Part shown: one piece after another, positions 21,375-56,018 of the stretch
Position numbering within the stretch: position 1 is the first letter of the stretch
How the letters are laid out: every line of letters begins with the position of its first letter
Virus record (IMG/VR): IMGVR_UViG_3300048905_000040
Span: 1-59,663 of that record
From: a virus
Length of the DNA: 59,663 nucleotides
Reading direction: 5' to 3' (one strand)
The notes under the pieces: model-generated
Database searches by the model: none
Told to the model about the DNA's origin: nothing
Seen by the model: the letters and a program-made list of their open reading frames with translations, nothing else
Program-made: the position numbers and the translations under genes

Positions 21375-21451
21375 GCAGTTGTAGCTCAGTTGGTTAGAGC
21401 GCTCGCCTGTCACGCGAGAGGTCGCGGGTTCAAGTCCCGCCAGTTGCGCCA
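21375..21451 (+). tRNA. tRNA-Asp (GTC)
   Basis: A 77-nt cloverleaf ending in encoded CCA. The acceptor is GCAGTTG with CAGTTGC. The D arm is TAGCTCAGTTGGTTAGAGC, the anticodon stem CTCGC/GCGAG with loop CTGTCAC (anticodon GTC), and the T arm GCGGG-TTCAAGT-CCCGC. All expected tertiary bases are present. Confidence 0.95.
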
Positions 21452-21457
21452 GTTTAT

Positions 21458-21533
21458 TGCGTGGTAGTTCAGTCGGTAGAACAGCGGGCTCATATCCCGC
21501 ATGTCGCAGGTTCGAGTCCTGCCCTCGCAACCA
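21458..21533 (+). tRNA. tRNA-Met or Ile2 (CAT)
   Basis: A 76-nt cloverleaf with encoded CCA. Acceptor TGCGTGG pairs with CCTCGCA with one U-U mismatch. Anticodon stem GCGGG/CCCGC with loop CTCATAT, anticodon CAT. U1-A72 argues against an initiator tRNA. If C34 is modified to lysidine it would read AUA as Ile; the sequence alone does not decide. Confidence 0.88.
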
Positions 21534-21538
21534 GTTTC

Positions 21539-21614
21539 GCCGTTATAGCTCAGTCGATAGAGCGCCTGCCTTGTAAGCAGGATGTCCGGGGTTTGATTCC
21601 TCGTTGCGGCACCA
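21539..21614 (+). tRNA. tRNA-Thr (TGT)
   Basis: A 76-nt cloverleaf with encoded CCA. Acceptor GCCGTTA/TTGCGGC has one mismatch and one wobble. Anticodon stem CCTGC/GCAGG, loop CTTGTAA, anticodon TGT for ACA-type Thr codons, which are rare in high-GC hosts. The T arm has one wobble. Confidence 0.92.
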
Positions 21615-21617
21615 GAT

Positions 21618-21692
21618 TGGCGAGTGGCTAAGTGGTAAAGCGCGGAACTGTTAATTCCGTCATCGCACGTTCGAATCGTGCCTCGCCAGCCA
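21618..21692 (+). tRNA. tRNA-Asn (GTT)
   Basis: A 75-nt cloverleaf with perfect acceptor TGGCGAG/CTCGCCA, discriminator G and encoded CCA. Anticodon stem CGGAA/TTCCG, loop CTGTTAA, anticodon GTT. T arm GCACG-TTCGAAT-CGTGC is perfect. Last of the four tRNAs; the large structured RNA begins within about 70 bases. Confidence 0.95.
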
Positions 21693-22353
21693 TGTCCTGA
21701 AGCACCGTCGCGGCTCCCCAGCTGCCTTCCCGCCCATGCGGGGCTCATCTTTATCGAAGTGTGATCTGTTATAGCAGCGCAGCTTGTGGATGAAACCAGT
21801 GGACCATGACCGCCGATTACAATGATGGTTGTTATTTGTAGCCCTGCGGAGTGAACGGGAGGCGTTGAAGAGACTCCACCACAAGCAGATCACACCTCAA
21901 TACAGATGAAGTTATGGCGACAAGCCGGATAGAGCCCCGGCCATTTGTATTCAGTGCTGTCCTGGGAGGCGGTCCCGCGCGGGAGTTTGTGCCGCTGTAA
22001 GTCCAGGCTGTATCTGAATGCTCTCCCCCAGTCAGTGAAAGTCCCAGCCCGATCAAGCATCGCCGGGCCTATGCAGGGAGCGCCACAGGGAGAGCATCCA
22101 GATGCAGATGAACGCCCAGGCTGATGGGACTATTCAGTTTGACGGGAATACGGGTTGATGTGGCAGCCCTTGATAACGACCGTGCTGGGTAGGTGAGAAT
22201 CGACGAAGCCACAAGGCCGCAAGGCACTGAGCCACAAAGCCGGGGATCAGCGCCGGCCATCTGCAACAAGCTCAGAGGAAGTGAAACATCATCACGATGC
22301 GGATCAGGCCTCAACACACCGCCAGCGATGGCGCCGGATCAGGTTACCGGCAT
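21693..22353 (+). ncRNA. Candidate large ornate non-coding RNA downstream of the tRNAs
   Basis: About 660 bases with no credible protein frame but many long-range perfect helices in series. GTGTGATCTG (21760) pairs with CAGATCACAC (21886), and CTTGTGG with CCACAAG just inside it. AATACAGATG (21899) pairs with CATTTGTATT (21942). ATTCAG/CTGAAT (21949/22014) encloses CCTGG/CCAGG, GCGG/CCGC and the palindrome TCCCGCGCGGGA. ATGCTCTCCC (22018) pairs with GGGAGAGCAT (about 22090). The region ends in a perfect terminator. Size, tRNA neighbourhood and phage location match the GOLLD and ROOL classes of giant ornate RNAs. I cannot show it belongs to either. Exact 5' end unknown. Confidence 0.65.
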
Positions 22354-22381
22354 AGCCCCGCCTCAACCGCGGGGCTTTTTT
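22354..22381 (+). terminator. Strong intrinsic terminator
   Basis: AGCCCCGC, a 7-base loop, GCGGGGCT, then a run of six T. It ends the non-coding RNA region and is only 8 bases before the next promoter, so the two transcription units are cleanly separated. Confidence 0.92.
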
Positions 22382-22388
22382 ATGCCTG

Positions 22389-22423
22389 TTGCGTAGTGCC
22401 CGCAACGGTTCGATAATCAAACC
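22389..22423 (+). promoter_or_regulatory. Late promoter candidate P-terS
   Basis: TTGCGT, 17-base spacer, GATAAT (22412-22417), embedded in the word TTCGATAATCAAACC that recurs before the capsid gene (30303) and, with one change, before the polyprotein gene (45345). It starts 8 bases after a strong terminator and about 30 bases before the terS ATG. Sigma-70-like spacing with a phage-specific extension downstream of the -10. Confidence 0.65.
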
Positions 22424-22454
22424 TACTGTTTCCACTTCACACCCGAGGCTATCC

Positions 22455-23042
22455 ATGACCGTACCGGCCAAGAAGGCGCCCGTCAAGCGCGCCCCGCGCA
22501 AACCCAAGATCGAGCCCCCCAAGGCCAAGGCCGTGCGCAAGCCTCGCGCGCCCAAGGTCAAGAAGCCCATCGGGCGCCCATCCTCGTACACCCAAGACAT
22601 CGCCGACCTGCTGTGTGAAGGCCTCGCGTCCGGCCTGTCAATGCGAACCGTTTGCAAAGCTGAAGACATGCCCGCAATGGCGACGGTGTTCCGCTGGCTG
22701 CGCATCAATCAAGAGTTCAGAGAGCAGTACACGCGCGCCAAGCAAGAATCGGCCGACGCCCTGGTCGAAGAAATGATCGACATTTGCGACGACGGAACCA
22801 ACGACTGGATGGTGACGCACGACAAGGACGGCGAAGAGAACGGCTACAAGATCAACGGTGAGCACGTCACGCGTTCGCGCCTGCGTGTGGAAACCCGCAA
22901 GTGGATCGCGGCCAAGCTGAAGCCGAAGGTCTACGGCGAGAAAGTCGACGTCAGCCATGGCGTTCAACCAGACAACCCGCTGCTGGCCTTGATGGGCCAA
23001 ATGGCCGGCAAAGTCCTCAAACCGGTGGCCGATGATGAATAA
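22455..23042 (+). CDS. terS: Terminase small subunit
   Basis: A 195-residue protein. The first 45 residues are Lys/Arg/Pro-rich (VKRAPRKPKIEPPKAKAVRK). The terminase small-subunit HTH follows (RPSSYTQDIADLLCEGLASG, LSMRTVCKAEDMPAMATVFR, WLRINQEFREQYTRAKQE), and the later part includes SRLRVETRKWIAAKLKPKVY, characteristic of this phage family. It selects the packaging start site and partners with the large subunit at 23681. Start at 22455 has GAGGCTATCC upstream. First gene of the late transcription unit. Confidence 0.9.
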   Translation: MTVPAKKAPVKRAPRKPKIEPPKAKAVRKPRAPKVKKPIGRPSSYTQDIADLLCEGLASGLSMRTVCKAEDMPAMATVFRWLRINQEFREQYTRAKQESADALVEEMIDICDDGTNDWMVTHDKDGEENGYKINGEHVTRSRLRVETRKWIAAKLKPKVYGEKVDVSHGVQPDNPLLALMGQMAGKVLKPVADDE

Positions 23043-45377: not shown

Positions 45378-48300
45378 GTGGCTGAAAACCTTTTTCTCAA
45401 GTCGCCCTCCGCGATTGCCCCCACTGCCACGGCGCCCACTGCGCCGCCCATGCCCAACCTCCAGACCCTGCCACCGCGCAGCTCCAGTGCCGGTCCGCTG
45501 ACCTCCAGCGCCGCGACCGTCATGAGTCAAGGCCTGTTGCCGCCACCAGACCTTCAGCCCCTGTTCGAGAAATACTCCGCTGAAACCGGCGTGCCGCTCA
45601 ATGTGTTGTCGGCCCTGGCGCAGCAGGAGTCGGGCTACAACCCCAATGCCATTGGTGAAATGACCAAATGGGGCCAGGCCAAAGGCATGCTGCAAAACCT
45701 CGACAGCAACGCCAAGAGCTTGGGGATCAACCCGTTCAATGCGGAACAGTCGATTGCCGGCGCGGCGCGGCAGCTGCGCGAGCGACTGGACAAGGGTTAC
45801 AGCATGGAAGATGCGGTGAAAGCCCACTTCGGGGGTGATAACCGTGAGCAGTGGGGCGAGAAGACCAACGCCTACGGGCAAGAGGTGCTGGCCAAGGCCG
45901 GGATCATCGGCGACCAGCTGATGGCCGGAAAGCAGAAGGCCGCACCTGTCTCGCCGGGCAATGACCTGGCCGCGATTCAAGCGGAAATGGATGCCAAGGA
46001 GCCAGGGCGTTACAAGGTGATCGACCCGGCTGATATCGCTCAGCGCGACCAGCAGCGCGCCACCCTCGCCAGCGGCAAGGACGCTTTGCAGAATGCACAG
46101 CAGGCTACGGGCGCCTATCAAGCCCCTTCGCCGCTGACCCTGACCAATCAGCAGGCCGTCGAAGACCGGGTGAACAGCGCGCCAGCGCCCTCGCCACTGA
46201 CGCCGACCAACCAGGAACTGGTGCAAAAGGGCATGGCGCCGGTCGATACACGCCCGGAAGATGGCTTTGCCGCCGCCACCGGCAAACAATTGCAGAACTT
46301 CGGCCCGCACATGAAAGACGCCGTGGCTGGTCTGGTGCGCATGGGCAGCGAGAGCATCGACAACGCCACCCTGGTCGGCAACGCGGGTAGCTCCGGCATC
46401 ATCCAGCGCATGCAGGATAATGGCGACATCATCATGGTGCAGAACGATCGGGGGCAGAACACCCCGACCCTGCGCAACGGCAAGCTGGCCGACGAAGCGA
46501 ACATTGCCGCGTTCATTCGCGCCAATGCCGGCGAGCTGATGTCGCCTGATGAGGCTGGCGCACTGATCGGCATGAAGCCGCGCGCCGTCACCGAGTGGGC
46601 GCAGAAGACCGCCAAGCAAGCCAAGCTCGACACCATCGAGGTACGCCCGGATGGCCCGCTGGCCAAATACGGCAGCATGATCATTGGCTCGACGGCGGAA
46701 ATGATCCCGGCGCTGGCCGCTTCGGCGATCACCCGTAACCCGGCCGTGGGCATGTCGTTAATTGGCGGCCAGGTCACCGGGCAAGGCTACAACAAGGGCC
46801 GATCCGGCGGGCTGAACGCGCAGGACGCTGGTAATTACGCCATCGCGCAGGGCATGGCCGAGGCCATCCCGGAATACCTGCCGATTCATGCCATCCTCGA
46901 ACCCGGCAAGAACTTCTTCAAGGGCCTGCTCAAGGCCGGCGCTGCCGAGTCGGTGCAGGAAGGCGTGACCCAGATCATCCAGGATGGTCTGGACAAGGGT
47001 TCGATTGATCCGAACATGACGTGGGCGCAGGCGCGGCAGAACCTGGCCGATGCCATGATCACCGGTGCCGGCGCCGGTATGGCGCTAAAGGCGGGCGTGC
47101 ACGGCCTTCAAAAAGCCGCCGATGCGATCCCGACGCGCGACCGTGAAGCCGAGGCGGCCGCCGCCGCTCAGGCCCAGCCCGCTCCCGCAGCCGAGCCCCA
47201 GCCACCACAGGCGCCCGAGGCTGCAACTGTCGCGCCGGCGCCAGCCCCCACCGGTCCACTGACCCGTGCCGCGCAGCACTACGTCGCGCCCGAGCCAGTA
47301 GTAGCCCCCGCAGCAGCAGAGCCAGCTGGGGAGCCGGTCACCGTGCGCAGCTCCGACGGTGAAATGGCCGGCACCCTGCAGGACTACCAAGACCACGGCC
47401 AGGGCCAGTGGACCGCGCGCGTGCTGGCCGACGACGGCAACGCCTACGACTTCACCCAAGACGATGGCGTACAGCTGGAACGCGCCAGTGCGCCGATCGC
47501 GCCAACGGCTGAGCCAGCGCAACCGGCGCAGGCCACCCCTGAGCCAGCACCAGCGGACAACATCCCGACGCTGACCGATGTAGTAGCGCCTGAAGCCTCG
47601 CCCGACTACACGTCGATGGACGTGCCGTCGTTGCGCGCCGAACTGAAAGCCACCGCGACCGCGATCAAGGCCGACCCGAAGAACAAGGCGTTGACCAAGC
47701 GGCGCAGCGCCATTGAAAAGGCAATCAAGGCCGGCATCAACACCGCCGACAAGGCGCCGGCTGTCACCGAACTGACCGGCGACAAGATCGATAAGCAATG
47801 GTCGCGCTTCGCCGATGACTCGGGCAGCCTCAACGTGCCACGCGCCGACATGCCGCAGATCAAGGCCGAGCACCGTGGCGCGATGGTCAACTTTCTCAAT
47901 GCGCGCGACATCGCCCACACGCAGGAAGAAGTCCCGGCCAGCAGCCTGAAGCCAACGCAGGAAGAGTTCAGCCCGGCCAAGGTCAAGAAAGCCTTGGGTT
48001 ATGAAGGCGGCGACCGTTCGATCCTGATTTCCAGCGACAACCATGTGCTCGACGGCCATCACCAGTGGCTGGCCAAGGTCGATGGCGATCAGCCGGTGAA
48101 GGTCATTCGCCTGGACGCACCGATCCAACAACTGCTCGACACCGTGCGCGAGTTCCCCAGTGCCGAGACGGCCAATGGTGCGACCGCCGCACCAGCGCCA
48201 ACAGCTGAGCCGACTAATAGCTTGTCGCGCACTGCCAGTTGGGCGATCCGCGATAAGGCGACCGGCGAAGTGGTCATGGAAACCTTCGATAAGAAGAAGG

Positions 48301-51300
48301 TCGACGCGCTGAACACCGACAAATACGAGGCGGTGCCGATTCAGCAGCACCTGGCCGAAGTCAATCAGTCGATCAAGGCCGGTGATGAGACGGGTAAGAT
48401 CAAGCCGGCCGCTGCAACAGAACCGGCCAAACCTGCATCAAAACCGGTGGAAACTGCATCGCCAGCGCCTAAACCTGCATCAGCAGTGACCGAACCGGCA
48501 TCGAAACCGCAGACGCCGCAACAGAAGGCCAAGGCCCGCGCCGAAGCCCAGCGTCAGGCCGCGCGCGACCGTATGGGCGGAATCAAGGAGGGCGAGCAGT
48601 TCATCCCGTCCGCTGACGTGGGTTACATCAGCGGCGGTGAAACCTACACTGTCGACAGCATCGACAGCAAAGGCAACGTCTACGTTAAGCGCAGCGGCAC
48701 CAACAGCGGCACCCACCTGTCGCACGCCGACTTCAACGGGGCCGAGCATAAGGGCGTGACCTTTGCCAAGGTCGAGCCAGCAGCCCCGGCAACCCGTGCA
48801 GAAACTGCACCCGTTCAACCAGCCATGGAAACACCAACAACCCCGGCCGAAACCGCCGCTGAACTGGTGAAGTCCGCCGAGTACGGCGCTAGCAACAAGC
48901 TGGTAAGCCAAGACCGCGCGGCCGAACTGCGCGAGCGCCTGAAGAAGAAACTCAACGGCTCGCAGCTGAACAGCGGCATCGATCCGGAAATTCTCGCGCT
49001 CGGCACCGAGCTGGCGGTGTTCCACATCGAGGCCGGCGTGCGTCAGTTCGCCGCCTTCGCCAAGACCATGGCCGAAGACCTAGGCCAGCCGCTGGAGAAA
49101 GTTCGACCGTACCTGCGCAGCTGGTTTAACGGTGCGCGCGACATGATGGAAGACGCCGGCCACTCGGTCGACGGCATGGACAACGCCGACACCGTGCGCG
49201 CCGAACTGGCAAAGCTGGATCAGGCGCCGGCCACTGAGGCAAAAAGCGCCCCCGTTCAAACCGCCCCGGCAACTACCGATAAATCCTCGGCAGTTCAAGA
49301 ACCAGCCGAAGAATCACCGACCCTAGCCACTGGCGTGTACAGCCATAAGCAGCACCCGGAAGTGACAGCTACGGTCAGCCAGACGGATAAGGGCTACGCT
49401 ATTGAGTGGGCGCCTGATGATGTTCAGGAGTTCAAAGGTAAACATGCGGTCGCCAAAGCACAGGCGGCGCTATCTAAAGAGGGTTACACCCTCAACGAGG
49501 AATCTGATGCAACAAGTCCCAGCGAGCGTGTGGAACCAAATCGCCCAGACCGAACCGCTGCAAAATCCGTCGATGCGCCTGCTGTTCGCAATGAGCCAGC
49601 CGCAGCTGGACGCCGCACTGGCGAGCCAGGCGCAAGCGCTGTCGACAGCGGGGCAGACGGACAGCGTAATCAACGCCTACCAGCTGATGGCGCCGCTGCT
49701 GGCCGAGAATCAGGCGATCAGCGCGTACATCAACCGGACGGGGCATTCCGACCTACGCTCGGCGATGCCGGAAGTGTTGAACCCGCCCGAAGCGGTGGCG
49801 ATAGCGACACAGGAAAACCCGTTGAGCGCGAACGAGCAGCGCACATTGTTGACACTGCTCCGGCCACTGATGCCGACGAGTTCAGTCAACGTCTAGCCGC
49901 GCAAAAGCAAGCGACCGGCACCAAGACCGTTCGCGGCGACCAAGCCAACATCGATAAAGCCTTGCCCCTCCTGCTGGAGCCTCAGCGCGGCGACGTGCTC
50001 AAGGCCGAGCAGCGTTTCGCTGTGGGCAACGGCATGCTGCTCACCAACGGCACCGGCACCGGCAAGACCGCCAGCGGCATGGGCCTCGTTGTGCGCTCGA
50101 TCAACGCCGGCAAGCCCAACGCCCTGGTGGTGGTGCCAAGCGACAAGATCGCCTCGGACTGGATCAAGTTCGCCAAGATGCTGGGCGTGAACCTGAAGCA
50201 ACTGGAAAGCACCAGCGACAACGGCACAGACGGCCAGGTCATCACCACCTATGCCAACTTCGGCGCCAACGATAGCTTAGCCCTGCGCGACTGGGATCAG
50301 GTCGTGGCCGATGAGGCGCATTACCTGTCGAGCAACGAGAAGGGTGAAGGCACGGGCGCGCTGGCCAAACTGCAAGGCTTGACCGGTCACCCGGATGGCT
50401 TCTATCAGTGGGTGCGTGAGCGCAACCCGAAAGAATGGGGCGCCTACAAGGAGGCAATGAACGCCAGCCGCGACGCAGCGAAAGATTCCGCCACCACCCA
50501 AACGCAGAAAGACCAGCTGGCCGAAGTTGAAGGTAAGCAAAAGGCGCTGTGGGACGCTATCGAGAAGCCGGCCAAGAAAGCCTGGCAAGACCGCTGGGCC
50601 AAGCAGCAAGACCTGCCGAAAACCCTGTTCCTCTCGGCCACCCCGTTCGCCTACGTCAAAAGCGTGGACTACGCCGAGGGTTATCTGTTCGATTACGTTG
50701 ATCCGGCCGAGCGCTTCAGCAACAAGGCGGAAATAGCCGGTTCGGCCTACAACAGCGGCGATGCGCGTGAAAAGTTTTTCATGCAGCACTTCGGCTACCG
50801 CATGCGTTACAACAAGTTGACCGCGCCGGAAGCCGGGGTGGATTCCGAACTGATGGAGCAAGGTTTTAACCAGCACCTGAAGGACATCGGCGCCCTATCG
50901 GGCCGACGCCTGGAAGTGCCGTATGACTACGACCGCAAGTTTGTGATGGTCGATGACGCCGTGGGCCAGAAGATCGACCAAGGCCTGGCCTTCCTGCGCG
51001 AGCATGCTGACGGCAAGTACCGCAAGGTCTATGACGCGGTCATGGCGACCTTCGACTACCAGCGCCGCATGTACCTGCTGGAATCGATCAAGGCCAAGGC
51101 CGTGGTGCCAATGATCAAGGAGCACATGGCGCTGGGCCGCAAAGTGGTGGTGTTCCACGACTACAACAAGGGCGGCGGCTTCGATCCGTTCAACGCCGGA
51201 CTGGCCAGCATTACCGAGGCGGATGTCCGCGCGCTGGCCCGCGAAGCCTTTGCCGCGCGCCCGGACATCTTCAAGAAGATGGACCTGACCGGCCTGTACT

Positions 51301-54300
51301 CGCCGATTGAAACCCTGTCGGCGGCCTTTCCTGACGCACTGTTCTTCAACGGCACCGTGCCGAAAGCCAAGCGCCGCGCCAATGCCGACACCTTCAACGA
51401 CGACACCAGCGGCAAGGACTTGATTGTCTTGCAGTCGGACGCCGGCCGCGAAGGCGTGAGCTTGCACGACACCACTGGCCAGCACATGCGCGTGCTGATC
51501 AACCTCGGCATGCCAGGCAAACCGGTGGCCGCGATCCAGATCGAAGGCCGCACCTACCGCACGGGCCAGGCCAGTGATGCCGCGTTCCGCTACCTGACCA
51601 CCGGCACCGCCTGGGAAGCCAGCGCCTTTGCCAGCAAGATCGCCGAGCGCGCCTCGACCGCTGAAAACTTGGCGCTGGGCACCGAAGCCCGCGGTTTGAA
51701 ACAATCCTTCATCGACGCCTACAACGGCGCCGAAGACCTGGCCCCGAGCGCCGAGGATGGCAAGGGCGGCAAGGCACTGGATCGTGAGTTGGGCGCCGCT
51801 TCGACGCTGACCCCGTTCAACCGGGCCAAGGCCTTTTACTTCGCACAGCAGAAGAACACCAAGCGCCGCGACCAGCGCGAAGGCACCGACTATTTTGCCA
51901 CCCCGGAACCGGTCGGCTTCAAGATGGCCGAGTGGGCGAACATCCAGAAGGGTGACGACGCGCTGGAACCGTCGGCCGGGCATGGCGCCATCGCGCGCTT
52001 CTTCCCGCCGCAAACCAACGTCACCATGGTCGAGCCGAGCTATGACCTGTCGCAGCGGGCGGCCCTGGCCAACGGCAACGCGCGGATCATCAACGACAAC
52101 TTCGAGTCGTTGCACCGGACCAACAAGTACGACGCCGTGGTGATGAACCCGCCTTACGGCAACGGCGGCAAGACCGCCATCGAGCACGTCGCCAAAGCCG
52201 CACAGCACCTGCGCGAAGGCGGCCGGATCGTCGCCTTGATTCCGCGCGGCGGCCTGACTGACAAGCGCCTGGCATCCTTCTTGGAAAGCGAAGAGGCGCA
52301 GAGCCTGCACCGAGTGGCCACCTTTGTCATGCCGGCCTCGACCTTCGAGCGCGCCGGTACGTCGGTCAACACGCAGGTCATCGTGCTGGAGAAACACAGC
52401 AACCCGGACGACGCATTGAACATCCATGCGCGCACGGTCGACCTGAGCAATGCCCAATCGACTGGCGAACTGTTCGACCGCATCGAGCACTTGGACCTGC
52501 CCGACCGCATGCCGAGCAGCAAACCCGAGCCGAAGCCGGTCATGATTGAGCACGTCACCGGCAAGGGTAAAACCATCACCGGTATCGTGCGCACCGACCT
52601 GACCAAGGATGAAGCCAAGGAAATCGACCCGTACACCTTCCCGAAAAACGGTGGCTTCTTCATCCGATCCAAGTACCTGGGCGACGGTAATCGCCTGTCG
52701 GTGGCCACCCCGGTCGGCGAACCGGCTTCGCATGAAGAAGTACGCGACGCCATCACCCAAGGCCCGTTCGGCCCGGTGGTCAAGAAGCTGATCGATGCCG
52801 GGCACATCGTGGTTCACGGCAACGTGCAATCGCTGCCCGACGGCGTCACCCCTGTGCGCGGCATGCAGGCGGTCACTACGCCCGACGGCACTGTGCACTT
52901 GATCGCAGCCAACCTGACCCCGGGCAATGCCAACGGCGTGCTGCTGCATGAAATGTTTCACAGTGGTGGCGAGCAGCTGGTCGGCTCCAAGCGCTGGGCC
53001 GAGCTGATGCAGCGCCTGGACGCTTTGCACCGTCAGGCCGAGCAATCCACCGGCAAGGCCCGTGAAGTGTTTGACCGCGCCCGTGAGCGCGTCAAGCAGG
53101 CGCAGGATCAAGGCGCGGTTGCCGATGGCATGACTGCCGAAGAGTTCGGCGCCTACGCCATTGAAGAGCACGCGCAGCTGCCGGCCGCCTTCCGCAAGTG
53201 GGTCGACGACCTGGTGGGCGCCATCAAGCACTGGCTGTTCAGCCGCTACGGCAAGCAACTGGGCCAGGTCACCCCGGCGCAACTGCGTGCCATGGCCAAG
53301 GATGCGTTGGTGTCGATGGCCCTGGCCAAGCGTGGCGAGCTGTTCGGCCCGGCCGGGACCATGTTCAGCGTCAAGTTGTCGGAGCACTTCGACGACATCA
53401 AGAACAATGCCGACGCCACCAGTTTCAGCGACAAGATCGGTCCGGTGAAACTGCCGCAGCGGATGGCGGATCGCTGGCGCCAACTGACCGATAACCTCGG
53501 TCTGCGCATTCGCCAGGCAGCCGTCGACCGTTACGCGCCACTGATGCGCAACGACCAAGCCCTGTACGGCGCCGACACCCTGGAAGGCTCGATTGCCTCC
53601 AGTTCGTGGGTGTTGGCACGCATGAGCCAGGCCGCAGGCGGCGCGGTAGATGCCTTGCTGCATCACGGCCGCATCTACCTTGATCCGGTGGAAAAGGTCA
53701 TTGACCTGCACGACAACAGCAAAGGCTTGGGCGACACCCTGAATAAGCTCGGTAGCGTGGCGGAAATGACCCGTTTCATGGGTTGGATCGCGGCCAACCG
53801 ATCCAAGCGCCTGCTCGGCGAAGGCCGTGAAAACCTGTTCACCCCGGCCGAAATCGAGGCCGGTATCAAGTTCAGCGGTGGCAAACTGGCTGACGGCAAG
53901 AGCCGGAGCATTCTCTATCAGCAAGTGTGGAAAGAGTTCCAGCAGCACCGCGACGACGTGCTGGGCATTGCCGAGCAGTCGGGCATCATCACCCCTGAGC
54001 AGCGCGCTACCTGGAGCGATGAGTTTTATGTACCGTTCTATCGGGTGATCGACAGCGAAAACCTCGGCGGCCCATCCTCGGGCGGCGGTGGTCTGTCGCG
54101 TCAGCAGGCATTCAAAAAACTCAAGGGCGGCAAGCAGCACCTCAACGACTTGCTGGAAAACACCCTGCTCAATTTCCACCACCTGGTGCAAGCCAGCCTG
54201 AAGAATCAGGCCGCGACGCAGGCCATGGACAACGCCGAGCAGCTGGGCATTGCCGACAAGACTACCGAGGCGCACCGCGACAAGAAGGCCAGCACCTTCG

Positions 54301-56018
54301 TCATGGAGAACGGGATTAAGCAGTGGTACAACGTCAACGACCCGCTGACCTTCAAGGCGGTGTCGGCGATCACTGACGCGGGCACCAATACCCTGTCGCG
54401 GCGGGTGATGCGCGGCTTCAAACGTTTCTTTACCAACATGACCACCATCACCCCGCAATTTGTGGTGGCGAACGCCATCCGCGACACGCTGGCGGCCATG
54501 GCCACGTCGCCGACCAGCGCCATCCCGCTGAAAACCGCGTTCAAGGGCGCGCTGACTTACGGCAACAACCGCCAGCGCGCCCGCCTGATGGCCAGCGGCG
54601 GCGGTTTCCACTTTGGCCAGGTCTACGGCCATGGCGCCACCGAGTTCAAGGCCTCGCTCAATGGCACCATGCGCGCCGCGCAAGTGCTCAAAGACCCGAT
54701 GCTGATCCCGAACACGCTGATGAAGGCCTGGCGCAAATACCATGACGTCACCGACTTTGCGGAGAACATGAACCGCGCCGGGATTTGGGAGCACAACCAG
54801 AGCAGAGGCAAACTCAAGGCCGCGTTTGAAGCGCGCGACCTGATGGACTTCAGCGCACACGGCGATGCCGGGATTATCCGCTTCTTCACCGATGTGGTGC
54901 CGTTCCTCAATGCGCGCATCCAAGGCCTGGACAAGCTCTATCGCTCGGGCGGCAAGCCGGCGTTGAAAACCCTGTTCGGCAAGGGCACCAAATCGGACAA
55001 GCAGGCCTTCGCCCGCTTCGCGTCGGTGGTTGGTGCGCTGACCGCCTTCAGCGTGATGCTCTATCTGCGCAACAAGGACGACGAGGATTACCGCAAGCTG
55101 GAAGACTGGCAGCGCGACACCTATTGGGTGATCAAGATCGGCGGCAACATGTTCTTCATTCCGAAGCCGTTCGAAGTGGGCTCGATCGCCACCATGGGCG
55201 AGCGCCTGATGGAGCAGTTCGTGGACCCGACCGTGGGCGGCGACAAGCTGGGCAGCCGGGCCTTGCACATTCTGCTGGACACCTTCGCGATGAACCCGAC
55301 GCCACAGGCATTCAAGCCGGCATTCGAGTTGTGGGCGAACGAAAACACCTTTACCGGGCGGCCGATTGAAGACCAGTCGATGCAGCGCCTCAGCCCCAGC
55401 CTGCGCGCGCGGCCGGACACCACGCGCCTGGCGGAAGCGTCGAGCCGCGGCATCGAAAGTGCGCTCGACGTGATCGGTGCCGGTAACTCGGCGCTGTCAC
55501 CGGTGCAGATCGATCACCTGATCCAGGGTTATATGGGTGCAGTGGGCTCGACCGCCATCGGCATGGCCGACACGTTCTGGCGTCGGGCGCAAGGCGAAGA
55601 GTTGCCGGCGCGTAGCTGGGATGAATACCAGCCGGTGAAGCGCTTCTACAAGGATTTGACCAAGGAGGACAACTACACGCGCTACGGCACCGACTTCTAC
55701 ACCGCGCTGAAGAAATCCGACCAGGCCTATGCCGACCTGCAACACCTGGCCAAGTATGGCGAGGAAGAGAAGGCTGTGGCGCTGGAGCAGAAAGAGGCAG
55801 ATGTGCTGGCGTTGCGCGGCACCTTGAACAAGGTCAACCGGGATATGTCGCGCATTAATGCGGAAATGAAGCGCATCCAAGTGGACAAGGACATGGACGG
55901 CAAGACCAAGCGTCTGGAACTGGACCGCCTGCGCTCGATGCGCAACCTGATGACCGAGGAAATCGGCAAGGACCTGGAGCAGCAGAAGATGACTAAGCGG
56001 GCGTCCGAGGGGAAATAA
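45378..56018 (+). CDS. Giant polyvalent virion protein, 3546 aa
   Basis: GTG start with GAGGGCATCACCT upstream. Domains in order: lytic transglycosylase (about 60-175, catalytic Glu84 in QQESGYNPN); hydrophobic segment (about 430-520); disordered linkers; ParB-like module (about 865-920, ISSDNHVLDGHHQW); disordered 1370-1500, where a +1-frame gene is nested; DEAH-type helicase of the strawberry-notch/DarB type (Walker A NGTGTGKT near 1556, DEAH in VADEAHYL near 1642, QIEGRTYRTGQA); adenine-methyltransferase-like domain (EPSAGHGAIA near 2196, NPPYGNG near 2256); zincin-like HEMFH near 2521; C-terminal large-polyvalent-protein domains. It probably enters the host with DNA, cutting peptidoglycan and protecting DNA against restriction, like P1 DarB and Bcep22-type proteins. 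Confidence 0.93.
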   Translation: MAENLFLKSPSAIAPTATAPTAPPMPNLQTLPPRSSSAGPLTSSAATVMSQGLLPPPDLQPLFEKYSAETGVPLNVLSALAQQESGYNPNAIGEMTKWGQAKGMLQNLDSNAKSLGINPFNAEQSIAGAARQLRERLDKGYSMEDAVKAHFGGDNREQWGEKTNAYGQEVLAKAGIIGDQLMAGKQKAAPVSPGNDLAAIQAEMDAKEPGRYKVIDPADIAQRDQQRATLASGKDALQNAQQATGAYQAPSPLTLTNQQAVEDRVNSAPAPSPLTPTNQELVQKGMAPVDTRPEDGFAAATGKQLQNFGPHMKDAVAGLVRMGSESIDNATLVGNAGSSGIIQRMQDNGDIIMVQNDRGQNTPTLRNGKLADEANIAAFIRANAGELMSPDEAGALIGMKPRAVTEWAQKTAKQAKLDTIEVRPDGPLAKYGSMIIGSTAEMIPALAASAITRNPAVGMSLIGGQVTGQGYNKGRSGGLNAQDAGNYAIAQGMAEAIPEYLPIHAILEPGKNFFKGLLKAGAAESVQEGVTQIIQDGLDKGSIDPNMTWAQARQNLADAMITGAGAGMALKAGVHGLQKAADAIPTRDREAEAAAAAQAQPAPAAEPQPPQAPEAATVAPAPAPTGPLTRAAQHYVAPEPVVAPAAAEPAGEPVTVRSSDGEMAGTLQDYQDHGQGQWTARVLADDGNAYDFTQDDGVQLERASAPIAPTAEPAQPAQATPEPAPADNIPTLTDVVAPEASPDYTSMDVPSLRAELKATATAIKADPKNKALTKRRSAIEKAIKAGINTADKAPAVTELTGDKIDKQWSRFADDSGSLNVPRADMPQIKAEHRGAMVNFLNARDIAHTQEEVPASSLKPTQEEFSPAKVKKALGYEGGDRSILISSDNHVLDGHHQWLAKVDGDQPVKVIRLDAPIQQLLDTVREFPSAETANGATAAPAPTAEPTNSLSRTASWAIRDKATGEVVMETFDKKKVDALNTDKYEAVPIQQHLAEVNQSIKAGDETGKIKPAAATEPAKPASKPVETASPAPKPASAVTEPASKPQTPQQKAKARAEAQRQAARDRMGGIKEGEQFIPSADVGYISGGETYTVDSIDSKGNVYVKRSGTNSGTHLSHADFNGAEHKGVTFAKVEPAAPATRAETAPVQPAMETPTTPAETAAELVKSAEYGASNKLVSQDRAAELRERLKKKLNGSQLNSGIDPEILALGTELAVFHIEAGVRQFAAFAKTMAEDLGQPLEKVRPYLRSWFNGARDMMEDAGHSVDGMDNADTVRAELAKLDQAPATEAKSAPVQTAPATTDKSSAVQEPAEESPTLATGVYSHKQHPEVTATVSQTDKGYAIEWAPDDVQEFKGKHAVAKAQAALSKEGYTLNEESDATSPSERVEPNRPDRTAAKSVDAPAVRNEPAAAGRRTGEPGASAVDSGADGQRNQRLPADGAAAGRESGDQRVHQPDGAFRPTLGDAGSVEPARSGGDSDTGKPVERERAAHIVDTAPATDADEFSQRLAAQKQATGTKTVRGDQANIDKALPLLLEPQRGDVLKAEQRFAVGNGMLLTNGTGTGKTASGMGLVVRSINAGKPNALVVVPSDKIASDWIKFAKMLGVNLKQLESTSDNGTDGQVITTYANFGANDSLALRDWDQVVADEAHYLSSNEKGEGTGALAKLQGLTGHPDGFYQWVRERNPKEWGAYKEAMNASRDAAKDSATTQTQKDQLAEVEGKQKALWDAIEKPAKKAWQDRWAKQQDLPKTLFLSATPFAYVKSVDYAEGYLFDYVDPAERFSNKAEIAGSAYNSGDAREKFFMQHFGYRMRYNKLTAPEAGVDSELMEQGFNQHLKDIGALSGRRLEVPYDYDRKFVMVDDAVGQKIDQGLAFLREHADGKYRKVYDAVMATFDYQRRMYLLESIKAKAVVPMIKEHMALGRKVVVFHDYNKGGGFDPFNAGLASITEADVRALAREAFAARPDIFKKMDLTGLYSPIETLSAAFPDALFFNGTVPKAKRRANADTFNDDTSGKDLIVLQSDAGREGVSLHDTTGQHMRVLINLGMPGKPVAAIQIEGRTYRTGQASDAAFRYLTTGTAWEASAFASKIAERASTAENLALGTEARGLKQSFIDAYNGAEDLAPSAEDGKGGKALDRELGAASTLTPFNRAKAFYFAQQKNTKRRDQREGTDYFATPEPVGFKMAEWANIQKGDDALEPSAGHGAIARFFPPQTNVTMVEPSYDLSQRAALANGNARIINDNFESLHRTNKYDAVVMNPPYGNGGKTAIEHVAKAAQHLREGGRIVALIPRGGLTDKRLASFLESEEAQSLHRVATFVMPASTFERAGTSVNTQVIVLEKHSNPDDALNIHARTVDLSNAQSTGELFDRIEHLDLPDRMPSSKPEPKPVMIEHVTGKGKTITGIVRTDLTKDEAKEIDPYTFPKNGGFFIRSKYLGDGNRLSVATPVGEPASHEEVRDAITQGPFGPVVKKLIDAGHIVVHGNVQSLPDGVTPVRGMQAVTTPDGTVHLIAANLTPGNANGVLLHEMFHSGGEQLVGSKRWAELMQRLDALHRQAEQSTGKAREVFDRARERVKQAQDQGAVADGMTAEEFGAYAIEEHAQLPAAFRKWVDDLVGAIKHWLFSRYGKQLGQVTPAQLRAMAKDALVSMALAKRGELFGPAGTMFSVKLSEHFDDIKNNADATSFSDKIGPVKLPQRMADRWRQLTDNLGLRIRQAAVDRYAPLMRNDQALYGADTLEGSIASSSWVLARMSQAAGGAVDALLHHGRIYLDPVEKVIDLHDNSKGLGDTLNKLGSVAEMTRFMGWIAANRSKRLLGEGRENLFTPAEIEAGIKFSGGKLADGKSRSILYQQVWKEFQQHRDDVLGIAEQSGIITPEQRATWSDEFYVPFYRVIDSENLGGPSSGGGGLSRQQAFKKLKGGKQHLNDLLENTLLNFHHLVQASLKNQAATQAMDNAEQLGIADKTTEAHRDKKASTFVMENGIKQWYNVNDPLTFKAVSAITDAGTNTLSRRVMRGFKRFFTNMTTITPQFVVANAIRDTLAAMATSPTSAIPLKTAFKGALTYGNNRQRARLMASGGGFHFGQVYGHGATEFKASLNGTMRAAQVLKDPMLIPNTLMKAWRKYHDVTDFAENMNRAGIWEHNQSRGKLKAAFEARDLMDFSAHGDAGIIRFFTDVVPFLNARIQGLDKLYRSGGKPALKTLFGKGTKSDKQAFARFASVVGALTAFSVMLYLRNKDDEDYRKLEDWQRDTYWVIKIGGNMFFIPKPFEVGSIATMGERLMEQFVDPTVGGDKLGSRALHILLDTFAMNPTPQAFKPAFELWANENTFTGRPIEDQSMQRLSPSLRARPDTTRLAEASSRGIESALDVIGAGNSALSPVQIDHLIQGYMGAVGSTAIGMADTFWRRAQGEELPARSWDEYQPVKRFYKDLTKEDNYTRYGTDFYTALKKSDQAYADLQHLAKYGEEEKAVALEQKEADVLALRGTLNKVNRDMSRINAEMKRIQVDKDMDGKTKRLELDRLRSMRNLMTEEIGKDLEQQKMTKRASEGK
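49507..49896 (+). CDS. Nested gene in the +1 frame of the polyprotein gene
   Basis: A 129-residue ORF starting MQQVPASVWNQIAQTEPLQN, with GAGGAA a few bases before its ATG. It is rich in Leu, Ala, Gln and helix-like (LLFAMSQPQLDAALASQAQA, NAYQLMAPLLAENQAISAYI). Over the whole stretch its third codon positions are nearly all G or C (CTG, GCG, CAG), as in true genes here. The polyprotein frame over the same bases is Pro/Arg/Gly/Asp-rich, disordered, with poor third-position GC. This strongly suggests the nested frame is real. No family recognised. Compensating sequence errors are the main alternative. Confidence 0.72.
   Translation: MQQVPASVWNQIAQTEPLQNPSMRLLFAMSQPQLDAALASQAQALSTAGQTDSVINAYQLMAPLLAENQAISAYINRTGHSDLRSAMPEVLNPPEAVAIATQENPLSANEQRTLLTLLRPLMPTSSVNV

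Follow-up and report, generated by a model that had tools for sequence, protein, structure and literature searches.

A predicted structured RNA family with exchangeable arms in phages, prophages and Pseudomonas genomes

Results

Comparative analysis shows positions 21696-22381 (+ strand) of a viral DNA stretch to encode a predicted structured RNA that belongs to a widespread family absent from Rfam. The stretch, referred to here as the window, comprises all 59,663 nucleotides of IMG/VR record IMGVR_UViG_3300048905_000040. As predicted from alignment with its relatives, the window RNA includes two modules, the first much diverged, two variable arms and one invariant arm, followed by a terminator (Table 1). 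The unit shared across the family is a predicted three-way junction in which hairpin P4 lies beside the closing helix and the loops of hairpins P2 and P4 pair with each other, over 6 bp in the main form; both the module family and this putative fold are near certain. Comparison of the variable arms further shows their exchange between phages, with some being predicted to be tRNA-like. Such tRNA-like arms are a minority of the arms.

Table 1. Features of the window in and around the predicted RNA.
Feature	Position	Strand	Basis
Four tRNA genes (Asp GTC, Met CAT, Thr TGT, Asn GTT)	21375..21692	+	ARAGORN and Rfam
5' conserved block	21696..21755	+	alignment of the window and six relatives
Variable arm A	21756..21898	+	closing helix recurring at one position in all seven aligned sequences
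Module 1	21899..21951	+	closing helix 21899-21908/21942-21951, hairpin P4 21924-21941
Arm B, nearly invariant	21949..22019	+	nested ATTCAG/CTGAAT, CCTGG/CCAGG, GCGG/CCGC
Variable arm C	22018..22097	+	closed by ATGCTCTCCC/GGGAGAGCAT
Module 2 (core), predicted three-way junction	22103..22265	+	cmsearch (E 1.2e-19, 79 bits); covariation
Intrinsic terminator after the RNA	22354..22381	+	terminator scan; surrounding block resembles that of several relatives
terS, Sf6-type small terminase subunit, next gene downstream	22455..23042	+	Pfam PF20901 (E 3.6e-41)

The window locus and its relatives

The initial annotation of this DNA placed a large RNA candidate directly after four tRNA genes, in a region said to lack any credible coding frame and to end with a strong terminator. 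Indeed, the tRNA array, as defined by ARAGORN, ends immediately before the region, and an intrinsic terminator was called at the end of the region by the scan, at 22354-22376. As to coding capacity, frames of at least 40 amino acids are found on both strands, but no frame conserved across 21693-22381 was noticed, given that the length of arm A varies between 67 and 145 nt among the seven aligned sequences. As judged by eye, two relatives (L002, ~2437-2722; L018, ~2087-2381) have a small frame of ~95 codons separating module 2 from the terminator, which is absent from the window. The terS frame was scanned as 22389-23042, with the ATG at 22455 being read from the sequence. TerL of the window shares 60% identity with that of Serratia phage Parlo, 57% with that of Pseudomonas phage Skulduggery and 52% with that of Burkholderia phage BcepMigl, a phage group which we take to be Bcep22-like. 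Elsewhere in the window, a single open frame of 3546 codons (45378-56018) presumably encodes a very large virion protein of this group.

Through TerL, 19 related contigs were found, six of which could be aligned with the window before terS across the 5' block, arm A, module 1, arm B and arm C; the module 2 hairpin motif is also kept in four of the six (L002, L004, L008 and L018). Within the 5' block, CTGAAG, GGCTCCCCAGCT and CCCGC.CATGCGG are invariant in all seven sequences, and the 3' end of the block is TCTTTATC, a weakly boxA-like sequence, with the window copy (4 mismatches in 12 positions) being at the level seen in shuffles. Arm A is closed in the window by GTGTGATCTG/CAGATCACAC (21759-21768/21886-21895) together with CTTGTGG/CCACAAG, and its sequence is mostly particular to each of the seven. 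In every one of these, the ends of the arm pair at 8-9 of the 9 outermost positions; strands taken from different relatives pair at 0-7 of these positions. Single arm helices are modest, being reached by 0 to 22 of 200 shuffles, and support for the arm A helix comes from its recurrence at the same place rather than from any one helix. Arm B is almost identical in the seven aligned sequences, which places its pairs beyond covariation testing there. The closing helix of arm C is of different sequence in L004, L008 and L018, while L002 carries the arm of the window. A tRNA is predicted within arm C of L018 and within arm A of L011, and D- and T-arm-like pieces can be seen by eye in arm A of L003. 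In L006 (1077-1175), hairpin P2 has seemingly been lost, with the closing helix and P4 being kept.

The long-range pairings originally listed for the window are all present, at 21759/21886, 21783/21879, 21899/21942, 21949/22014, 21961/22003 and 22018/22088, with GCGG/CCGC being too short for unique placement. They are, however, neither all perfect nor all compatible. The AATACAGATG/CATTTGTATT pairing contains one G-U and is thus not perfect, while its 3' strand (21942-21951) shares three bases with ATTCAG (21949-21954), such that this helix and the ATTCAG/CTGAAT helix cannot both form in full. Likewise, the argument that several 10-bp pairings exceed chance proved weak when taken alone, as two perfect ones are found where 0.25 are expected, a number reached in 29 of 500 mononucleotide shuffles. 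Perfect 8-bp pairs number 11, as compared to 4.0 expected (reached in 9 of the 500 shuffles). The MFE z value is -2.23 for 21693-22390 (1 of 20 shuffles as low) and -1.07 for 21755-22275 (18 of 100 shuffles as low). Single-sequence folding of the region is nearly uninformative and the statistics are marginal; what decides in favor of a predicted RNA with a real fold is the comparative evidence across relatives.

The core module

Conservation sits in a module of 60-208 nt that runs from GATGAA to the end of P4, and not in one large RNA as had been envisaged. The core consists, in order, of a helix ending in GATG, AA, a hairpin (P2) with the loop AGGCTGAT, the variable arm that separates P2 from P4, P4 itself, a hairpin of the type GCCGG-AGATCAGCA-CCGGC, and, immediately after it, the CATC of the closing helix. 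In the window, more arms lie between the modules.

In alignment A1, which holds 40 modules picked from 63 candidates and includes arms of up to ~150 nt, 94.5% of the cells are paired across the closing helix, P2, P4 and the kissing pair. Changes on both sides number 54, as compared to 11.4 in shuffles, and pairing falls to 28-45% when the partner is slid by 1-3 columns; because the search pattern fixes the P2 loop, this loop cannot vary in A1. Covariation had been named at the outset as an observation on which the structured-RNA reading hinged and, with the closing helix, P2, P4 and the kissing pair all covarying, that reading stands.

The kissing helix was considered in 13 hand-picked modules, comprising modules of the main form and the variants L041, L202, L208, L205, L119 and L010. 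Here, the helix is 98.5% paired, a value that is valid for the main form and not for the whole family since the rows were chosen by hand, and one further pair is 100% paired. Two pairs of the helix change on both sides, and slid controls for this structure give 21-54%. Outside these rows lie L198 (like L208), L209 and L210 (like L202), a possible GCTTA/TGAGC variant of L004 and L018 noted by eye, and a series of divergent modules lacking a full kissing pair, namely, module 1 of the window and of L002, the Pseudomonas chromosomal form, L257, L262, P1 4570-4717, L148 4643-4790, L011, L006 and Jeremy. The variant pairs, obtained with two patterns that exclude the usual loop and with a model search, are GGTGAT/ATCACC (L041), GTCGAT/ATCGAC (L202, L209, L210), GTCGA/TCGAC (L198, L208) and GTTGAT/ATCAGC (L205). 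Neither L006 nor module 1 of either the window or L002 has the kissing pair, which is only 3 bp long in the Pseudomonas chromosomal form and measures 2-4 bp in some other modules according to an imperfect automatic loop parser. Because this P2/P4 parser chose wrong hairpins in several rows, including that of window module 2, the alignment was used instead.

Module 2 of the window is made up of a closing helix (22103-22110/22258-22265), P2 (22115-22128), a variable arm (22129-22238) and P4 (22239-22257). Its closing helix has the GATGAA and CATC borders and covaries, and its P2 and P4 loops are complementary, forming the predicted kissing pair GCTGAT (22120-22125)/ATCAGC (22246-22251). The match to the covariance model of the family, R1, spans 22089-22277, with the window copy being among the 40 sequences from which R1 was built. 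In module 1 of the window, no kissing pair was recognized, the P2/P4 loop complementarity is lacking, and the R1 score taken alone does not exceed noise (E 0.44, 12.1 bits); the module sits where L004 and L018 carry module 1 (covariance model E 1.5e-5 and 5e-4).

Arm exchange and proximity to tRNA genes

Clustering of the 122 variable arms that exceed 30 nt gave 71 clusters. A single arm type of 139 nt is shared by 11 modules whose closing helices are of several kinds, and ranges from the phage group of the window (L008) to leaders of the GATTG type described below. Among 108 modules from outside the window's own group, 12 have a tRNA within 600 nt on the same strand, as compared to 2.6 under random placement (largest 6), and none has one on the opposite strand. 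In three of the 108, ARAGORN predicts a tRNA inside the module, in the variable arm (L049 7019-7194, L075 3010-3217 and L086 1863-2021). T-arm-like hairpins outside predicted tRNAs lie near 9 of 129 modules, as compared to 0.05 in mononucleotide shuffles; two of these cases (L002 and L008) are genuine tRNA genes truncated where the tested stretch ends, leaving seven.

Occurrence in phages and bacterial genomes

A blastn search gave five weak matches, one in an unannotated record and four in phages AH02, Jeremy, KO-TP1 and SOVA965, where the matches fall in stretches of ~390-920 bases that are gene-free as annotated and that have a common core. A pattern for the first hairpin identified at least 120 stretches in viral contigs; this pattern fixes the P2 loop, and the resulting module set is a sample. 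Two loop-variant patterns yielded 19 distinct loci, comprising 6 members (L198, L202, L205, L208, L209 and L210) and 13 non-members, one of which reached 19.6 bits with R1, such that scores near 20 bits represent noise. Of 34 genome-contig loci, 28 clearly match R1 (L187 at only 32.8 bits), with no clear match being obtained in L158, L159, L160, L170, L183 and L186.

When genomes were searched with R1 at E 1e-5, matches were obtained in 8 of 398 genomes from the phylum of a Pseudomonas match (G003 and G004, among the eight, being already known), 75 of 298 from the genus of the same match (G003 already known), 28 of 295 from the family of an Enterobacter match (G004 and G006 already known) and 4 of 250 from the order of a Polaromonas match. 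The G006 locus L190 is titled Chryseobacterium, yet the genome lies among the family members of the Enterobacter match, such that this title is possibly mistaken. In E. coli, 1317 of 5426 genomes matched a 551-base query taken from a P1-like record, 222 of them across 80% or more of the query; for an N-leader query, 545 of 5426 genomes matched, 52 of them across 80% or more, with many of the partial matches possibly covering flanks only.

Phage P1 contains two tandem R1 matches (E 2e-15 and 1.9e-5), situated between the C1-controlled P1ban promoter and tciA in a stretch that also has two tRNA genes; plp and upl of P1 (L145 3977-4546; function unknown) are annotated on the opposite strand, antisense to the RNA modules, with plp overlapping a tRNA gene, and are perhaps not real genes. 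Across the annotated contexts of the modules, there is no constant downstream gene. At L027, L060, L078, L084, L257 and L262, the module begins right after a GC-rich stretch and T-run resembling the end of a terminator, while at L063 (minus strand, ~2139-2155) and L179 (minus strand, ~2280-2298), the module is followed by AGGAGG, which resembles a ribosome-binding site, and then ATGTGA, a minigene-like start-stop.

The Pseudomonas form

A form of ~190-220 nt was found by pattern in 77 of 298 Pseudomonas-genus genomes, with one match in each and none with the reversed-pattern control. At the eight loci inspected, four of which are on contigs of 6.5-7.3 Mb, the module stands alone. The RNA is similar in 28 of 28 pairs of these loci, with the likeness extending ~100 bases upstream in 11 pairs and beginning 14-68 bases upstream of the reference point in the others; at distances of more than 300 bases from the unit, flanking DNA is common to only 3 of the 28 pairs. 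By eye, a terminator-like GC hairpin and T-run follow the module at all eight loci. In one chromosomal copy, the terminator scan called none, and a weak promoter-like site was found upstream (1, as compared to 0.3 in shuffles).

No Rfam family reaches its gathering score at the modules of the inspected Pseudomonas loci. The best weak match at one copy, Trp_leader (24.6 bits, as compared to a gathering score of 41), was rejected, as were other sub-gathering matches at that copy, several of which fall on the terminator-like hairpin. At L255 (3147-3269), a TwoAYGGAY RNA (RF01731, 47.4 bits) lies ~1.8 kb from a module of the Pseudomonas form.

Lambda-like leaders and boxA

In L025, L031 and L144, a pL-like region, boxA with a boxB-like hairpin, the module and an N gene occur in this order. 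The next gene is N-like (PHROG 271) in four of the four loci tested (L025, L031, L144 and L219), that of L025 being 93% identical to lambda N and that of L031 sharing 49% identity with P22 gene 24. The L025 module is flanked by the sequences of the lambda N leader; the interior has been swapped, and the outer pairing is kept. In the lambda, P22, HK97 and HK022 stretches examined, no R1 match above noise was obtained.

The GATTG-type closing helix of these lambda-like leaders is carried by 50 of 108 modules. Considering 118 modules with at least 700 nt upstream, identical upstream stretches having been removed, boxA with at most one mismatch is found within 700 nt upstream of 26, as compared to 0 in shuffles, and with at most two mismatches upstream of 38, as compared to 2.8 in mononucleotide shuffles. 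By class, 35 of these 38 cases belong to the GATTG class, while 3 of 66 other modules have such a boxA. BoxA antitermination was accordingly rejected as a trait of the whole family, and no boxA role is claimed for the window because the excess is confined to the GATTG class. Nor is the window RNA placed like a lambda-like N leader, between a nut site and an N gene, lying instead between tRNA-Asn and terS. Elsewhere, the module comes just after a repressor-type gene in mEp460, KO-TP1 and IME10, an annotated N lies ~0.8 kb downstream of the module in EhrS_59, and the gene after the module is convergent in ep3.

Comparison with catalogued RNAs

A scan of the window with all 4227 families of Rfam 15 at gathering scores returned tRNA only, and a search for GOLLD and ROOL across 21690-22470 at E values up to 10 gave no match. 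Of the early proposal of a structured RNA beside phage tRNA genes that might be a GOLLD or ROOL member or a new class, the structured RNA is retained, with a new class as one option, while membership in GOLLD or ROOL is not. A search of five phage records for RF02032 was without match, the positive controls also being silent. At 35 further loci (18 + 12 + 8, with L050, L257 and L262 occurring twice), no non-tRNA family of Rfam 15 was found at modules or arms at gathering scores. Candidates within the window such as anti-hemB, asX2 and snoRNAs, among others, scored below the Rfam gathering scores and were rejected. C4 antisense RNA (RF01695) has no match in the window, and C4 matches at other loci lie away from the modules.

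In the open-licence literature, judged mostly by title and abstract, the module was not recognized as having been described. Two of the 104 candidate RNAs of a 2010 survey, c4-a1b1 and Pseudomon-2, have table rows that name gamma-proteobacterial phages and Pseudomonas and give no Rfam number (PMC2864571). The module thus appears to represent a new family of RNA, belonging in a broad sense with the large structured RNAs of phages, a judgement into which c4-a1b1 and Pseudomon-2 enter through these rows only.

Discussion

Taken as a whole, the findings are best explained by a non-coding RNA that would act independently as a scaffold for exchangeable arms, a reading we hold to be probable. The balance favors action as an independent RNA given that the Pseudomonas form stands alone and has a terminator-like hairpin after it, that flanks are mostly unshared, and that there is no constant downstream gene. 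The region would be transcribed together with the tRNAs and the RNA would work in trans, with its constant part providing a compact, rigid scaffold from which exchangeable arms would be offered to targets of the host or the phage, and with the arms carrying specificity. As some arms are tRNA-like, it is plausible that these could occupy or mislead a host factor that recognizes tRNA, such as RNase P, a modification enzyme or a defence nuclease that cleaves tRNA, although such a decoy role is a guess and rather improbable. The same low weight is given to the more elaborate picture of a kissing-loop three-way junction displaying recombined arm cassettes, some of them tRNA mimics that would disarm or redirect tRNA-recognizing machinery, with one form having been retained by Pseudomonas as its own RNA gene.

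The strongest rival, less probable than independent action yet to be taken seriously, is a cis-acting leader that would control the next genes by antitermination of the nut or put kind, or by RNase III processing or translation control. Such a role fits the N-leader class well, the leader reading being suited by the 50 of 108 modules that are of the GATTG type and by the N-like next gene in four of four such loci. The order of boxA/boxB-like elements, module and N-like gene in lambda-like prophages, the swapped interior and maintained outer pairing of L025 between lambda N leader flanks, the upstream boxA excess, and the positions of the modules in mEp460, KO-TP1, IME10 and EhrS_59 all speak for it. 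By contrast, the stand-alone Pseudomonas form with its terminator-like hairpin, the tandem copies in P1, the convergent next gene in ep3, the restriction of the boxA excess to the GATTG class and the lack of a match above noise in the lambda, P22, HK97 and HK022 stretches speak against it.

Other alternatives carry far less weight. It is quite unlikely that the module is c4-a1b1 or Pseudomon-2, published without an Rfam model; the hosts named in their rows and the missing Rfam numbers would fit (PMC2864571), but the two C4 RNAs compared lie elsewhere and are unlike the module. A repeat acting at the level of DNA, that is, an inverted-repeat element or a site of attachment or packaging with palindromes that imitate RNA helices, is very improbable. 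The window copy does adjoin terS, arms do move between phages, and covariation alone cannot tell RNA from single-stranded DNA, but the predicted kissing pair is a loop-loop contact within one strand, terminase genes are distant from several of the annotated copies (P1, mEp460 and IME10), nearby tRNAs are found on the module strand (12, as compared to 0), and, in the contexts examined, the module strand for the most part runs on into the next genes. Finally, a diverged GOLLD or ROOL giant RNA is largely refuted and the least probable of all: its size, its tRNA neighborhood and the presence of tRNAs within the RNA, as in the GOLLD linker described in excerpts of the cryo-EM work (PMC12286853), are set against the absence of a match in the window or the 35 further loci and a conserved unit that is a small module, found also alone.

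The family, apparently uncatalogued, is of interest for its range, being found in phage P1, in the prophages of numerous E. coli genomes and in roughly a quarter of the sampled Pseudomonas-genus genomes. Its exchangeable and partly tRNA-like arms make the role of large phage RNAs beside tRNA genes testable, with P1 in E. coli and the single-copy form in Pseudomonas offering convenient systems.

In its phage tRNA setting, its loop contacts and, in the case of GOLLD, the tRNAs within the RNA, the predicted RNA resembles GOLLD and ROOL, described in excerpts of the same source as large structured phage and prophage RNAs that are often near tRNA genes, contain kissing loops and are of unknown function (PMC12286853). 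It differs from these in that the module has no model match, is a small three-way junction that also occurs alone in Pseudomonas, and has arms that are swapped between copies. A 14-mer RNA cage is a further hallmark of GOLLD. The lambda N leader carries an RNase III stem between nutL and N that serves in RNase III processing and translation control. The L025 module occupies the same genome position and has near-identical outer flanks, but the interior differs, the lambda stretch is at noise level with R1, and modules are also found away from N. The put RNA of HK022, an antitermination RNA, is likewise a phage leader with paired hairpins, although the best R1 score in the HK022 stretch, 9.6 bits, is noise and the module also stands alone. 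C4 antisense RNA (RF01695) is, like the module, a structured RNA of P1-like and other phages, yet the two C4 copies compared have separate places and sequences. Lastly, the purine riboswitch folds as a three-way junction in which two hairpins touch through their loops, as is predicted here, whereas the module has a 6-bp kissing pair, an inserted variable arm and no constant downstream gene.
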